Source: an uncultured Methanobrevibacter sp. | GTDB lineage: Archaea; Methanobacteriota; Methanobacteria; Methanobacteriales; Methanobacteriaceae | Assembly: GCF_905235195.1 (NCBI RefSeq) | Contig: NZ_CAJOKH010000011.1 | Span: 1-37,146, forward strand | DNA length: 37,146 nucleotides | Direction of reading: 5' to 3' | Part shown: piece by piece, positions 12,649 through 29,057 of the stretch | How the letters are laid out: each line of letters starts with the position of its first letter | How positions within the stretch are numbered: position 1 is the first letter of the stretch | Position numbers and translations under genes: made by a program | Notes under the pieces: model-generated | Seen by the model: the letters and a program-made list of their open reading frames with translations, nothing else | Told to the model about the DNA's origin: nothing | Databases searched by the model: none

Positions 12649-14049
12649 ATGAATCTATTTAGGGCTACATACAATATTTTAAGTGATAAAACAGTTAATG
12701 AAAAATCATATTTTTTCACAAATAAAATGCTTTTTGCTTTATTTTTCCCTCTTTTAATAGAACAGGGTTTAGAATTTTTTGTCGGTTTTATTGACACTAT
12801 GATGGTTTCAACTATTGGTGAGGCAGCTGTTTCAGGTGTTTTTCTCATTGATTCTATTATGATGCTTTTAATATTTTCTTTTTCAGCACTTGCAAGTGGA
12901 GGTGCAGTTATTGCAGGACAATATTTAGGTAATGGGGAGTTAGATAAGGGATGTGAAGCATCAAATCAATTAGTATGGTTTTCAGCAATAATTTCTATTA
13001 TAATTGGACTACTTATTTTTCTTTTTAAAACATATATAATTAAATTATTATTTGGACAAATTAGTAGTAGTGTATTTGTCAATGCAGATATTTATTTAAG
13101 CTATATGATTTTAACTATTCCATTTGTTGCAGTTTATAATGCAGGGGCTGCAATTTATAGGACAATGGGAAATGCTAAACGACCTATGATTATAATGTTT
13201 ATTTGTGATTTATTTAATGTTATAGGAAATGCAATACTTCTTTTTGTCTTTGGTTTTGGTGTTGAAGGTGTAGCTATTCCTACGGTATTTTCCAGATTAA
13301 TAGCATCAGTTGTAATGATTTATTTTGTTTTAAATGAGAAAAATGACCTTCATATTAAAAAGACTTTAAAATATAAATTTGACTTTTCTATGCTTAAGAA
13401 GGTGTTAAATGTAGGTATTCCATATGGAATTGAAAATGGGCTCTTTCAATTAGGTAGAATTTTAATTTTAGGTTTAGTATCTACTTTCGGTACAATAGCT
13501 ATAGCTGCAAATGCTGTTGGTATAAGTTTCGGTATTTTTTCTGCACTGCCTGGTTTTGCTATTAATTTAGGTCTTACAACAGTTATCTCTCGTTGTGTTG
13601 GTGCAAATGATTATACTCAGGCTAAATTTTATAATAAAAAAATTATATTAATAACATTTATCACTCATTTATTGGTTAATATAATAATATTTATTATATT
13701 AGATCCGGTTCTTTCTTTATATAATCTATCACCAGAATGTAAAAATTTAGCAGCGGATATGATTATTTGGTATGGTATATTTGCAATCATTATATGGCCT
13801 TTAGCATTTACATTACCTACAAGCTTTAGAGGTGCAGGTGATGCTAAATGGCCTATGATTGTAAGTTTACTTGTAATGTTTATCTGCAGGATTGCACTTG
13901 CATATGTAATTGCTGATTACTTTGGATGGGGAGTATTTGGTACATGGGTAGCAATGTTTATAGACTGGTATGTTAGAGCAATATTTTATATTTATAGATA
14001 TTTAAGCGGTAAATGGATGGAATATAGGGCTGTAGGTAATAATTTTTAA
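12649..14049 (+). CDS. MATE family efflux transporter
   Basis: Integral membrane protein of 466 residues with about twelve hydrophobic segments in two homologous halves, as expected for Na+/H+-coupled multidrug and toxic-compound exporters. Typical elements are FFVGFIDTMMVSTIGEAAVSGV in the first helix pair, GAVIAGQYLGNGE, and in the second half the related PYGIENGLFQLGR and RGAGDAKWPM. The start codon has no convincing ribosome-binding site, so translation may start on a short leader; TTTATAAA about 40 bp upstream could be the TATA box. It is divergent from pheS. It is only distantly related to the second MATE gene in this window. Substrates are unknown. Confidence 0.92.
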   Translation: MNLFRATYNILSDKTVNEKSYFFTNKMLFALFFPLLIEQGLEFFVGFIDTMMVSTIGEAAVSGVFLIDSIMMLLIFSFSALASGGAVIAGQYLGNGELDKGCEASNQLVWFSAIISIIIGLLIFLFKTYIIKLLFGQISSSVFVNADIYLSYMILTIPFVAVYNAGAAIYRTMGNAKRPMIIMFICDLFNVIGNAILLFVFGFGVEGVAIPTVFSRLIASVVMIYFVLNEKNDLHIKKTLKYKFDFSMLKKVLNVGIPYGIENGLFQLGRILILGLVSTFGTIAIAANAVGISFGIFSALPGFAINLGLTTVISRCVGANDYTQAKFYNKKIILITFITHLLVNIIIFIILDPVLSLYNLSPECKNLAADMIIWYGIFAIIIWPLAFTLPTSFRGAGDAKWPMIVSLLVMFICRIALAYVIADYFGWGVFGTWVAMFIDWYVRAIFYIYRYLSGKWMEYRAVGNNF

Positions 14050-20173: not shown

Positions 20174-20878
20174 ATGGAAAATATATCTATTGATAATTAT
20201 TCAGCTTATAATTATGAAAAACACCCTCAAATTAAAGGTGTACAAATAGTTAATGGTTTAAATAACTTTCCAATAAGCTGGTTGAATATTCAAGGGTACT
20301 GTGAATATGAATTGTATCTTGAATATTTTAAAGGTATAGTTGTAGGGGAAACTACACATATGAAAAAGGGAACTGAGGTACATCAAAAATTAGAAGATGA
20401 ATTTAATAAAACTGCCAAACCTGCAAGTTTTAAGGAAACATTAAAATTATCTGAAACTGCAAAAACAAAAACAAGGGAAATGTTTGTTATTGAGCCAAAT
20501 TATGGAATAAGAGGATTTATTGATGAGATTCAGATGACTCCAGATTCATTTATTATAATAGATGATAAACCTGGAAATAAAGCATATTCTTCCCAAATTA
20601 ATCAAGTTAGAGCATATTGTTTAGCATTTAAATCACTCATTGAAAAACAATCTGAAGGTAATGATAATCGTAAAATAATTGGGGCTTTAAGACAAAGAGG
20701 AACAGATAACATATTCTTCACAGAGGAATTTGATGAAAATGTTGAAAATCAGATTAAATATTTAATTAATAGAATGCAGGGATTATTGGATGGTACAAGG
20801 CCATTTGTACCTACAAAAAATCCAAATAAATGTAGAAGCTGTAGATTTAACAAAGAATGTGAACATAATAAAAATTAA
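20174..20878 (+). CDS. Cas4-like PD-(D/E)XK nuclease with iron-sulfur cluster ligands
   Basis: A 234-residue RecB/Cas4-type nuclease. The active site is readable as H70 (GTEVHQKLEDEF), D117 in GIRGFIDEI, D130-D131-K132 in IIIDDKPGN, and the QxxxY helix motif Q144/Y148 in INQVRAYCLAF. Four cysteines, C43 near the N terminus and C220, C223, C229 in CRSCRFNKEC, match the split [4Fe-4S] site of Cas4 and related nucleases. The start follows a strong GGAGGT site and replaces an upstream ATG eight codons earlier. No cas1, cas2 or CRISPR array is present, so this is a stand-alone member, probably for DNA repair or processing. A DEAD-box helicase gene begins 83 bp later. Confidence 0.85.
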   Translation: MENISIDNYSAYNYEKHPQIKGVQIVNGLNNFPISWLNIQGYCEYELYLEYFKGIVVGETTHMKKGTEVHQKLEDEFNKTAKPASFKETLKLSETAKTKTREMFVIEPNYGIRGFIDEIQMTPDSFIIIDDKPGNKAYSSQINQVRAYCLAFKSLIEKQSEGNDNRKIIGALRQRGTDNIFFTEEFDENVENQIKYLINRMQGLLDGTRPFVPTKNPNKCRSCRFNKECEHNKN

Positions 20879-25163: not shown

Positions 25164-25445
25164 TTAGTATCTGTTGGATTTTATTTTATCTGCAACTGCT
25201 TTTAGAAGTTCATTTTTTTTCATTTCAGTATCTACAGCTACACGTCCTGAATGTTCATACCATAGTCCAGGATAACTTTTTTCAGTATCTACTACAGGTT
25301 GTAATTGTAATTTGTAACATGCTTTTCTAATTTCATTAATACTAGGATTTTTCACAGCATATTCTTTAGATATTTTACGTCCTTCTTTTAAAGTTCTATT
25401 GGAATCAATATATACAGGCCATATTGTAGTAAGTTCATTTTTCAT
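25164..25445 (-). CDS. srp19: signal recognition particle protein SRP19
   Basis: Binds SRP RNA and helps load SRP54 for targeting of membrane and secreted proteins. The 93-residue basic protein shows the family pattern WPVYIDSNRTLKEGRKISKEYAVKNPSINEI (9-39) and a second half with PGLWYEHSGRVAV. AGGAGA lies nine bases before the ATG. It is upstream of the recJ-like gene in what looks like a two-gene unit. SRP19 is confined to archaea and eukaryotes, which supports the archaeal origin of the window. Secure. Confidence 0.96.
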   Translation of the reverse strand: MKNELTTIWPVYIDSNRTLKEGRKISKEYAVKNPSINEIRKACYKLQLQPVVDTEKSYPGLWYEHSGRVAVDTEMKKNELLKAVADKIKSNRY

Positions 25446-25955
25446 AAATTATCTCCTAAGTTATGATATTTATTATTTATAAAATAATTTAAAATATTGA
25501 ATTCTATTATTAATATAATATTTACATATATTTTTTATATATTATATCATTTGTTACAAAAAATATGTTTATGATTTGATTTTTATTTTTCATATGGATT
25601 CTTTGGATATTCAGGAAATAAAAAGATCTTAAAAATGTATTTTAATTGAAGATTTGCAAATATGAAATAGTTTAGACATTGATATTATGCAAATTTAATT
25701 TTATATCTTCTTAGATGGAACAAAAATTTTAAATATTATTTTCATCTTTTTGACTATTTTTTATTATTTCTTATTTTCTTTTTAACAATATTCTTATGAT
25801 ATTTCTGTTTTTTTATTTTTTTATTTTTAAATTTTTAATTTATTAAAAATACTCTCAGATAAGATAATATTCTTTAATTAATTCTTTATATATGAACAGT
25901 TCGTAGGAAATTATATATGTTCATTAAGATGTAATATATAAATAAATAAGACTAG
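25446..25955. other. divergent intergenic region between SRP19 and the marR remnant
   Basis: AT-rich, no supported gene. The left part carries the SRP19 promoter on the minus strand. The right end has the TATA-like and operator elements of the marR-MATE unit. Confidence 0.45.
25892..25924 (+). promoter_or_regulatory. inverted-repeat operator candidate at the marR-MATE promoter
   Basis: ATGAACA (25892-25898) and TGTTCAT (25918-25924) are exact complements 19 bp apart. The left arm also belongs to a compact pseudo-palindrome, ATGAACAGTTCGT. TTTATATA directly overlaps the left edge at about 25885-25892, so a bound repressor would block TATA-binding protein or the start site. MarR-type operators are usually such inverted repeats in their own promoters. 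Confidence 0.55.
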
Positions 25956-26397
25956 ATGAAAAACATGTCTCTGGAGAAGAAAAATATAGATAAATTCGAC
26001 AGTATGCCTTTTATTACATTAATTAATTATATATCTAAAAATAAACTAAAATACTATATGAAAAATCCAAATTTGCAGATATGGTTCATGAAGGTCGTTA
26101 TTTAATGCAGATACATAGAAGCAATGATTTATCTCAAGATGATTTTGATGATTTTTTTGCTCAAAGCAAAGGAACTATAGCTAAGGCATTGAAAAAACTA
26201 GAAGATAATGGGTATGTAGAAAAAAATCCAGGAAACCAACATAAGAAAATATATATAAAAACAACAAAAAAGGTGAAAATTAGCTATTACTTGAAATAAA
26301 ATCTAAAAAAAAATAGGAAGAGCTTATTGGAGTTAATAAATTAGACAATAGGACAAAAAACCAGTTAAGAGAAATAGCAAGAAAAGTGAGGAAATAA
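25956..26397 (+). pseudogene. MarR family regulator, disabled by frameshifts and stops
   Basis: The pieces of one MarR-type winged-helix protein of about 145 residues are readable in order. They are MSLEKKNIDKFDSMPF, then ADMVHEGRYLMQIHRSNDLSQDDFDDFFAQSKGTIAKALKKLEDNGYVEKNPG (the HTH and wing), then EELIGVNKLDNRTKNQLREIARK. The first two are joined by adding one A in the run at 26061-26065, the next by one A at 26266-26271. In-frame TAG codons follow at 26281 and 26314; the latter precedes GAAGAG and is likely a former TGG. With two frameshifts and two stops it is unlikely to be sequencing error alone. It lies directly before a MATE exporter gene, the usual target of such a regulator. Confidence 0.8.
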
Positions 26398-26425
26398 TTA
26401 AAGAATGATTATTAAAGGAGATAAT

Positions 26426-27790
26426 ATGACAAATAAAAATGTGGAATTAATGAGGGGAGAACCTGAAAAGGCTGTAAAAAAATTAGCTATCCCAATTATG
26501 ATTTCAATGATTCTAACAGCACTATACAATATTGTTGATGGAATTTGGGTAGCTGGACTTGGACAGACTGCAATTGCAGGGATTGGTTTTGTAACTCCAA
26601 TTTTCATGGTCTTAACAGGAGCAAGTGTTGGACTTGGAAACGGTGCTACAAGTAGTATTTCAAGGTTTATTGGAGCAAAAAATCGTGATATGGCTACTAA
26701 ATCAGCAACACAAGCATTATTTATTTTTGCACTAGCTTCAATTATATTATCAATTATTTTCTTTTTAATTCAAAGACCATTACTTGAAAGTTATGGTGCT
26801 TCTGGTCAAACTTTAAATGAAGCTATAGCTTATTCTACTCCATTGTTTGTAGGATTATTCACTTTAATGTTTGCAAATGGTTGTAGTGGAATCCTTCGTG
26901 GGGAAGGTGATATGAAACGTTCAATGTATGTTGTAGTTATTACAGTTATTTTAAATGCATTATTAGATCCAATATTTATATATGTTTTTAAATGGGGCTC
27001 TGCAGGAGCATCACTTGCAACAGTTGTAAGTTCTGCAATTGCTGCAATAGTAATTTTATACTGGATTCTAATTAAAAAGGATACTTATATTGATATTAAC
27101 CTTAAATATTTTGTATTCGATTCAAAAATAGTAAAAGATATACTTAAAGTTGGTATTCCCTCTTCATTTGATATGTTAATTATGGCAATTGCAATGTCAA
27201 TCATTTTGATTGTAATTTCAATGGTTGGTGGAGATTATGGAATAGCAACATTCACAACAGGTCAAAGATTATATCTTTTTGCAATAATGCCTTTAACAGC
27301 AATAGGGTCTGCTGTTATTGCAGTATCTGGTAGTGCTTATGGTGCTCGAAATGGAGATTACCTTTCCAGAACACATATTTATGGTGTTAAAATGGGACTG
27401 ACTGTAGGAATTGCAATTGCAATAATATTGGTGGTTTTCTCATCTCAGTTAGCTACAATTTTTGCATACACTCCAGAAACTGCTAATTTAGTACCGGGGA
27501 TCGCCCAATATCTACAATTAGCATCTCCATGTTTATTCTTTACAGGTATGGGAATTCCATCAAGTTTTTTTTATCAAGGAATTGGAAAAGGATTGTATAG
27601 TTTAATGTTTACAATTCTAAGAGAAATTATATTTGTCCTTCCTTTAATCCTATTATTTGTATTTGTATTTAATTGGAATTTAGTGGGTGTCTGGCTTGGA
27701 TTAACTGTTGGAAGGTCAATTGCCAGTATTTTAAATTATGCATTTGCAAGATATGAAATTAGAAAAACAAGAATAAAATTTGAAAATTAA
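26426..27790 (+). CDS. MATE family multidrug efflux transporter
   Basis: A 454-residue membrane protein with about twelve helices, of the MATE branch common in methanogens and clostridia. The N terminus MRGEPEKAVKKLAIPIMISMILTALYNIVDGIWVAGLG and the loops GLGNGATSSISRFIGAKNRD and CSGILRGEGDMKRSMY are diagnostic. The second half repeats the fold (VGIPSSFDMLIMAIAMS, SGSAYGARNGDYL). I start it at the ATG at 26426, behind AAAGGAGATAAT. It follows the marR remnant by 28 bp and would be transcribed from the same promoter. With the regulator broken, expression may be constitutive. Substrate unknown. Confidence 0.94.
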   Translation: MTNKNVELMRGEPEKAVKKLAIPIMISMILTALYNIVDGIWVAGLGQTAIAGIGFVTPIFMVLTGASVGLGNGATSSISRFIGAKNRDMATKSATQALFIFALASIILSIIFFLIQRPLLESYGASGQTLNEAIAYSTPLFVGLFTLMFANGCSGILRGEGDMKRSMYVVVITVILNALLDPIFIYVFKWGSAGASLATVVSSAIAAIVILYWILIKKDTYIDINLKYFVFDSKIVKDILKVGIPSSFDMLIMAIAMSIILIVISMVGGDYGIATFTTGQRLYLFAIMPLTAIGSAVIAVSGSAYGARNGDYLSRTHIYGVKMGLTVGIAIAIILVVFSSQLATIFAYTPETANLVPGIAQYLQLASPCLFFTGMGIPSSFFYQGIGKGLYSLMFTILREIIFVLPLILLFVFVFNWNLVGVWLGLTVGRSIASILNYAFARYEIRKTRIKFEN

Positions 27791-27796
27791 AATTAT

Positions 27797-27816
27797 TTAG
27801 AAGAGTATACTTCTAA
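27797..27816 (+). terminator. hairpin after the MATE gene
   Basis: TTAGAAG and CTTCTAA form a 7-bp stem around AGTATA, seven bases after the stop codon. The following sequence is only moderately T-rich, so this is a weak call. Confidence 0.35.
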
Positions 27817-27938
27817 TTCTATCATTTAATCCTAAAATTAGTTTTATAGTTATTTAGCAAATTTTTATTATAAATCATTTATAAATAACTATAATAAAAG
27901 GTTAGTATTTACTATAATAGAAATTCTTATTTAAAAAT

Positions 27939-29057
27939 TTAATTTAAAAGTCTGTTAATTAATAGTATTATTAATTTTCCTATAATTCCACAATTATATT
28001 CTTTTTTAAATTTATTAAATTCATCAATGATTATGTTTTTTTCATCTTTTGTTAGATTAGACTTTTTAACTAGACTTATAAAATTAAGTAAAAATGGATT
28101 TAATATTATTTCAACATCTTTAAATTTATATTTGTTACAAAGGCTAGAACATTTACTATATCCAATTAATGAATCATAGACTAATTTAAAACTAATATCT
28201 TTTGTAATGGATTTGTCATCTTCACTATCTCTCATATAATAATTATATACAAATTGGTTATTTAGAAATATTATCCCCTTTGCATGAAAATATGCTTCCA
28301 TTAAAAAGTTTAAGTCTTCTGCAGATATAACTTCTGGAAATTTAATATTATTTTTTAAAATCAAATCGGATTTATAGATTTTTGTCCAGAATGAAGGAAG
28401 ACTTCTAAGTATATTTATATTATCATTTAATGTTTCAAGATAAATTTTATCATAAACTCCACAGGAGATATTTGGATTTTTATAGGTTTTTCCATAAATA
28501 AAATATGATATAATATTTTTCCATATAAATCCACTTAATCCTTCAAGGTTTATATTATCTATAATATCGTCTGTGTAATCATTTAATCTGTCTTTAAATG
28601 CAGAGTGGGATTTTTGTATTAATTGGTTTTTATTGTTTATGTAATGATTTTCATATTTATCATTATCTACATCAGTATATATTCTTTTATATCTACCAAA
28701 GACAATGTCTACATTTTCATTTTTAATTGTATTGTATAATACTTCACAGCTATTAAGCTCATAAGTATCATCAGCATCTAAAAACATTATGTATGGCCCT
28801 TTAACATAATCAAGAGCTATATTTTTAGGTCCATATGCTGCTCCAATATTTTTATCCAGATTAATCAGTTCAATATTAGGATACTCTTTAATATAATTTT
28901 CAATTATCTTTGAGGTATCGTCAGTTGATTTATCATTAACTATAATTATCTGTAAGTTTTCTATGCCTATTGTTTGTTTTATAAGACTATTTAATGTATT
29001 TTCAATGGTTTTCTCACCATTATATACTGGTATTATAATACTTATTTTATAGGTCAT
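27939..29057 (-). CDS. family 2 glycosyltransferase (GT-A fold)
   Basis: Transfers a sugar from a nucleotide donor to a surface glycan, lipid or protein acceptor at the membrane. The N-terminal GT-A domain is clear: ISIIIPVYNGEKTIENTLNSLIKQT (5-29), IIIVNDKSTDDTS with the first conserved acid, and MFLDADDTYE with the metal-binding DxD. The remainder (about 130-372) is Lys/Asn/Ile rich and variable; it has no strong membrane helix. GTGAG precedes the ATG. The gene stands alone with no other glycan genes nearby. Its low G+C content and isolation would fit acquisition from elsewhere, but that is only an impression. Acceptor unknown. Confidence 0.9.
   Translation of the reverse strand: MTYKISIIIPVYNGEKTIENTLNSLIKQTIGIENLQIIIVNDKSTDDTSKIIENYIKEYPNIELINLDKNIGAAYGPKNIALDYVKGPYIMFLDADDTYELNSCEVLYNTIKNENVDIVFGRYKRIYTDVDNDKYENHYINNKNQLIQKSHSAFKDRLNDYTDDIIDNINLEGLSGFIWKNIISYFIYGKTYKNPNISCGVYDKIYLETLNDNINILRSLPSFWTKIYKSDLILKNNIKFPEVISAEDLNFLMEAYFHAKGIIFLNNQFVYNYYMRDSEDDKSITKDISFKLVYDSLIGYSKCSSLCNKYKFKDVEIILNPFLLNFISLVKKSNLTKDEKNIIIDEFNKFKKEYNCGIIGKLIILLINRLLN

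Follow-up and report, generated by a model that had tools for sequence, protein, structure and literature searches.

A decayed marR gene and operator remnant before an intact MATE exporter gene suggest loss of local repression in a methanogen

Results

The window analysed here is a 37,146-nucleotide stretch of contig 11 of an uncultured Methanobrevibacter sp., a low-GC (26%) Methanobacteriaceae genome of 1.89 Mb assembled in 107 contigs at 96% completeness. Between the SRP19 gene (25164–25445, minus strand) on its upstream side and a glycosyltransferase gene (27939–29057, minus strand) on its downstream side, the locus carries on the plus strand the remnant of a marR regulator gene followed by a complete MATE family gene. 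An Rfam scan of 25400–28000 found no known RNA element.

The MATE gene (26426–27790, plus strand) codes for a 454-aa protein in an intact frame (26426–27787) that matches both MatE repeats of the family with PF01554 (Pfam MatE, 170.7 bits) and is covered end to end by TIGR00797 (positions 1–396 of 396; 239.6 bits against a cut-off of 147.4). With all named MATE equivalog models the protein scored below the cut-off, and we refer to it as a putative exporter by family. The strong ribosome-binding site noted before this gene in the initial annotation was confirmed as AAAGGAGAT at 26414–26422 (plus strand). Comparison with the sister species (G002) gave a dN of 0.078 and a dS of 0.382 (dN/dS of about 0.2), indicating that the MATE gene is under purifying selection. 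Many MATE genes are present in this genome, judging by 31 MatE domain matches; a second intact one in the window (12649–14049) is EmmdR/YeeO-like at 213.5 bits, below the equivalog cut-off, and another homologue in the same genome (G000:C4:26374–27084) is broken by several stops.

The gene ahead of the intact exporter gene had initially been described as a broken marR, and profile searches and alignment bore this out. Frameshift-aware alignment to the intact marR proteins of relatives outlined a pseudogene of about 150 codons at 25956–26408 (plus strand), with its start at 25956 (or 25965) and its end at the TGA at 26406–26408. Its longest open stretch (26066–26299, plus strand), which codes for the winged-helix DNA-binding part, matched PF01047 (Pfam MarR) at 31.6 bits (cut-off 24.6; E 1.6e-7) and showed up to 67% identity to the intact marR of relatives. 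The window marR lacks a single open frame that includes the N- and C-terminal dimerisation helices: the two in-frame TAG codons reported earlier are present (26281 and 26314), and the two frameshifts of the earlier count became four net phase changes by homology, near 26073, 26222–26225, 26256 and 26384–26387, and these lesions led us to class the gene as a pseudogene rather than a functional member. The distance to the MATE gene was also revised, to 17 nt by homology from 28 bp, a figure that had come from the shifted-frame stop TAA at 26395–26397. For the window pseudogene, dN of marR relative to dN of MATE was 1.8–2.35, inside the range of 1.15–6.5 among intact pairs, leaving no detectable excess of non-synonymous change as a sign of relaxed selection; because this ratio is no higher than between intact pairs, the inactivation of marR looks recent.

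Intact counterparts of the locus were sought in relatives from the Methanobacteriaceae. A search of 139 family genomes for marR and MATE identified 24 with an intact marR directly before the same MATE, at a distance of 1–131 nt. These pairs (for example L062, L064 and L069) resemble the window in the MATE (59–84% identity over the 24 pairs), in the marR subfamily and in the position of a promoter element. The element, ATTGTTYATCRATRAACAGTTTCCNNGGAAACATTTATATA, is common to all 24 pairs, with 20 of its 41 columns invariant. It consists of two abutting 14-bp dyads of the form GTTT-N6-AAAC, GTTYATCRATRAAC and GTTTCCNNGGAAAC, with one base between them, followed directly by a putative TATA box, TTTATATA. 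In each dyad the centres of the two half-sites lie 10 bp from one another, close to a full turn of the helix. This spacing fits a MarR dimer, which places its recognition helices in successive major grooves (PMC3737563). If MepR at the mepA promoter is a guide (PMC3617543), the tandem dyads would most likely accommodate two MarR dimers side by side.

From the 24 marR-MATE pairs we built a sequence-only model of the element, R1, which scored 31–55 bits in these pairs and 22–35 bits before five marR genes that are unlinked to this MATE and lie outside the training set. A scan of the family with R1 returned 95 sites in 69 of the 139 genomes, 88 of which lie on the same strand as, and 122–288 nt before, a marR domain match (within 400 nt); these 88 comprise the 24 training sites, two tandem copies beside them and about 62 independent sites. 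Because the sites stand just upstream of marR in 88 of 95 cases, ATTGTTYATCRATRAACAGTTTCCNNGGAAACATTTATATA is almost certainly an autoregulatory MarR operator. None of the MATE orthologues without marR that were examined carried the element (L092, L095, L100–L108, L110, L112–L115, L117, L029, L030 and L006, the last from an uncultured Methanobrevibacter sp.). An exception to this pairing was found in G028 (L161, G028:C19:18900-22500), in which 97 nt of DNA lacking marR separate a 35.2-bit operator (20444–20482, minus strand) from the MATE gene that follows it, a real orphan-operator case and in this respect unlike the window. The tandem double operators, also before marR-MATE, are located at G018:C1:344466-344572 and G030:C3:21833-21942.

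The window retains a remnant of this operator at 25881–25917 (plus strand; ATTCTTTATATATGAACAGTTCGTAGGAAATTATATA), on the same strand as the marR pseudogene and just before it, and homologous to ATTGTTYATCRATRAACAGTTTCCNNGGAAACATTTATATA. The R1 match (25885–25917) reached 10.7 bits, compared with 31–55 bits for the intact pairs and 22–35 bits for the marR paralogues, although it still stood above the local background (E 4e-4 for 801 bases). In the first dyad the first GTT no longer has its invariant G and the centre is altered; in the second, one base is missing and the phasing is lost. Three bases, one of them the C of the final AAAC, are absent relative to all relatives between GGAAA (25906–25910, plus strand), a possible BRE upstream of the TATA box, and the retained putative TATA box TTATATA (25911–25917, plus strand), which aligns with the TTTATATA that ends the element in the 24 relatives. 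Consequently, no tandem dyad stands before TTTATATA at 25881–25917, and the window operator is, judging by these positions, decayed. In the intact pairs marR is open and the operator well conserved, whereas in the window both are broken.

The locus of the sister species (L167, G002:C31:23500-31000) has the MATE gene in the same position, next to the SRP19 and DHH genes, with a DNA identity of 85–87%; the two MATE proteins are 86% identical and form sisters in the tree (support 99/93). There, too, marR is truncated, but in a different manner: about 1.5 kb of other DNA stands in place of window positions 25783–26212, which span the operator and roughly the N-terminal 60% of marR, and a further gene of about 1.2 kb is inserted upstream. 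The 1.5-kb replacement holds three genes, an HTH gene and two small ones. A shared ancestral lesion was considered and rejected: the C-terminal 69 codons of the G002 marR are still open, without the stops and the frameshift that the window has in this overlapping part. On this basis the losses of operator and marR in the window and in G002 look independent.

Across the MATE tree, parsimony required nine gains or losses of marR, at least six of them on well-supported branches. At a syntenic locus in another genus, g9 (L062, L095 and others), the MATE gene is flanked by the same divergent gene with or without marR and operator, and species with marR are about as many as species without it. We give roughly even weight to the generalisation, and to its being wrong, that in the Methanobacteriaceae marR and its tandem-dyad, TATA-abutting operator form one removable module before a conserved MATE gene, both parts present or both absent, from which the exporter has repeatedly been released in parallel.

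Discussion

The window appears to hold a formerly autoregulated marR-MATE operon that has lost both repressor and operator, with the MATE gene now transcribed without specific repression; we put the probability of this reading at about 0.75. It is favoured because marR and the operator are both broken, whereas the exporter gene retains its TATA box, its ribosome-binding site and an intact frame. In the ancestral arrangement marR would have been encoded first, and two MarR dimers would have occupied GTTYATCRATRAAC and GTTTCCNNGGAAAC, which extend up to the TATA box. From there, over or next to the TBP/TFB site, MarR would have blocked the archaeal TBP/TFB machinery and kept both genes repressed until an inducer released it from the DNA. 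With the frameshifts and stops in marR, and an operator in which invariant positions and the second-dyad phasing are lost, the predicted outcome is TATA-driven, unrepressed MATE. We infer from sequence a MarR binding site in the element, a repressor role for MarR and a MATE gene that is now constitutively on. The initial annotation had likewise expected the exporter to be permanently on; its premises of a lost local repressor and a kept exporter stand, and derepression is the best inference from the sequence, but its preserved operator does not survive the comparison with relatives. Counting against the favoured reading, the remnant may still be bound weakly by some protein.

Promoter strength may also be lower because of the three bases lost between GGAAA and the TATA box, and this loss, which sets the window apart from all relatives, is what a further explanation builds on: the promoter would have decayed as well, leaving the MATE gene silent or weakly transcribed from another start. 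Given the retention of TTATATA, the strong ribosome-binding site and an intact MATE gene under purifying selection, we regard such a decay as unlikely. An assembly or sequencing error, with marR intact in the living organism, is less probable again. The lesions were read from an assembly, a draft of 107 contigs and 96% completeness, and indels can be errors; yet four phase changes and two stops would have to be mistaken within 450 bp, among neighbour genes with long open frames, and the adjacent operator has decayed too, while the nearest sister is without a working marR by a different change.

The initial annotation had proposed that an inverted repeat, ATGAACA-N19-TGTTCAT, is an operator that has been preserved and that either serves no purpose now that MarR is lost or is recognised by a MarR from another locus. 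The repeat is indeed present at 25892–25924, a genome search returned this as its sole exact copy, and its left arm falls inside the true surviving half-site. The right arm lies just 3′ of the TATA box, in sequence that is not conserved among relatives, and the half-site centres of the repeat are 26 bp apart, not about 10. The repeat is missing before all 24 intact marR-MATE pairs, an outcome that the initial annotation had itself named as refuting its proposal: each has at least three mismatches, and even the nearest is wrong at 3 of 14 arm positions. Repeats of this kind are also frequent in this AT-rich DNA. Dinucleotide shuffles of the 156-nt region produced arms of at least 7 with spacers of 3–25 in 820 of 1000 cases; requiring at least two G/C per arm lowered the count to 30 of 1000, yet in the window such a repeat was still present in 29 of 238 tiles of this size. 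Its absence in intact relatives and its frequency in such DNA identify it as a chance repeat.

A regulator acting in trans finds little in the rest of the genome either. Among five MarR-like Pfam matches, the pseudogene itself was the sole match to this marR subfamily, and the one further canonical MarR (L001), 148 aa long and flanked by unrelated genes, belongs to a different subfamily and is encoded at a locus without an operator of this kind. The genome contains no intact operator elsewhere (the best site scored 15.1 bits over half the model, and nothing reached E 0.001) and no second copy of the repeat within one mismatch. A substitute may reside in the missing part of the 96% complete assembly, but a related MarR from elsewhere using this site is unlikely, and the proposal of a preserved operator as a whole is very improbable. 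Least credible is that the open stretch 26066–26299, whose MarR winged helix is recognisable, is still translated into a small DNA-binding protein with a novel mode of regulation: the frame is lost at both ends, where MarR proteins have their dimerisation helices, no ribosome-binding site was seen before the internal ATG and the operator that such a protein would bind is degraded.

Loss of the local repressor, as we read the window, has well-studied bacterial parallels. In the Staphylococcus aureus mepRAB system, premature stops in mepR lead to mepA overexpression (PMC3617543), and by analogy the event proposed here would be of this already known type, derepression in the style of MepR-MepA. 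MepR-MepA shares with the presumed ancestral archaeal pair the order of the genes, MarR followed by MATE, as well as autorepression and a promoter-overlapping operator that two dimers probably occupy (PMC3617543). The systems differ in that MepR-MepA uses a bacterial −35/−10 promoter with a GTTAG motif, whereas the archaeal pair has a TATA box with GTTT/AAAC dyads; in that the window MATE scored only 72.3 against a cut-off of 850 with the MepA model; and in that the window operator is degraded besides the repressor. In Pseudomonas aeruginosa, efflux pumps are derepressed when the repressor is lost or when the operator palindrome loses its symmetry (PMC10609311), though those cases are bacterial, concern mostly RND pumps and represent within-species variation.

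Taken alone, the window would be a commonplace example of local repressor loss, and the gain lies in the operator found through genome comparison: a well-defined, TATA-abutting methanogen MarR site in about half of the family genomes searched. Our search of the literature on marR-MATE in methanogens found no paper on this operator, and the operator, its family-wide spread and its joint absence with marR appear to be undescribed in the literature searched. The nearest report is a transcriptomic study of M. ruminantium under lauric acid, in which two MatE genes went up and one MarR gene went down, with no link to this pair shown (PMC5816558). That marR and operator are repeatedly missing together suggests that constitutive export frequently brings an advantage or does no harm, and the operator makes MarR regulation in these archaea testable by gel shift. 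A MarR-type operator between a marR-like and an aldo/keto-reductase-like gene (L166, G003:C2:4070-4107) suggests that the operator also has another type of target.
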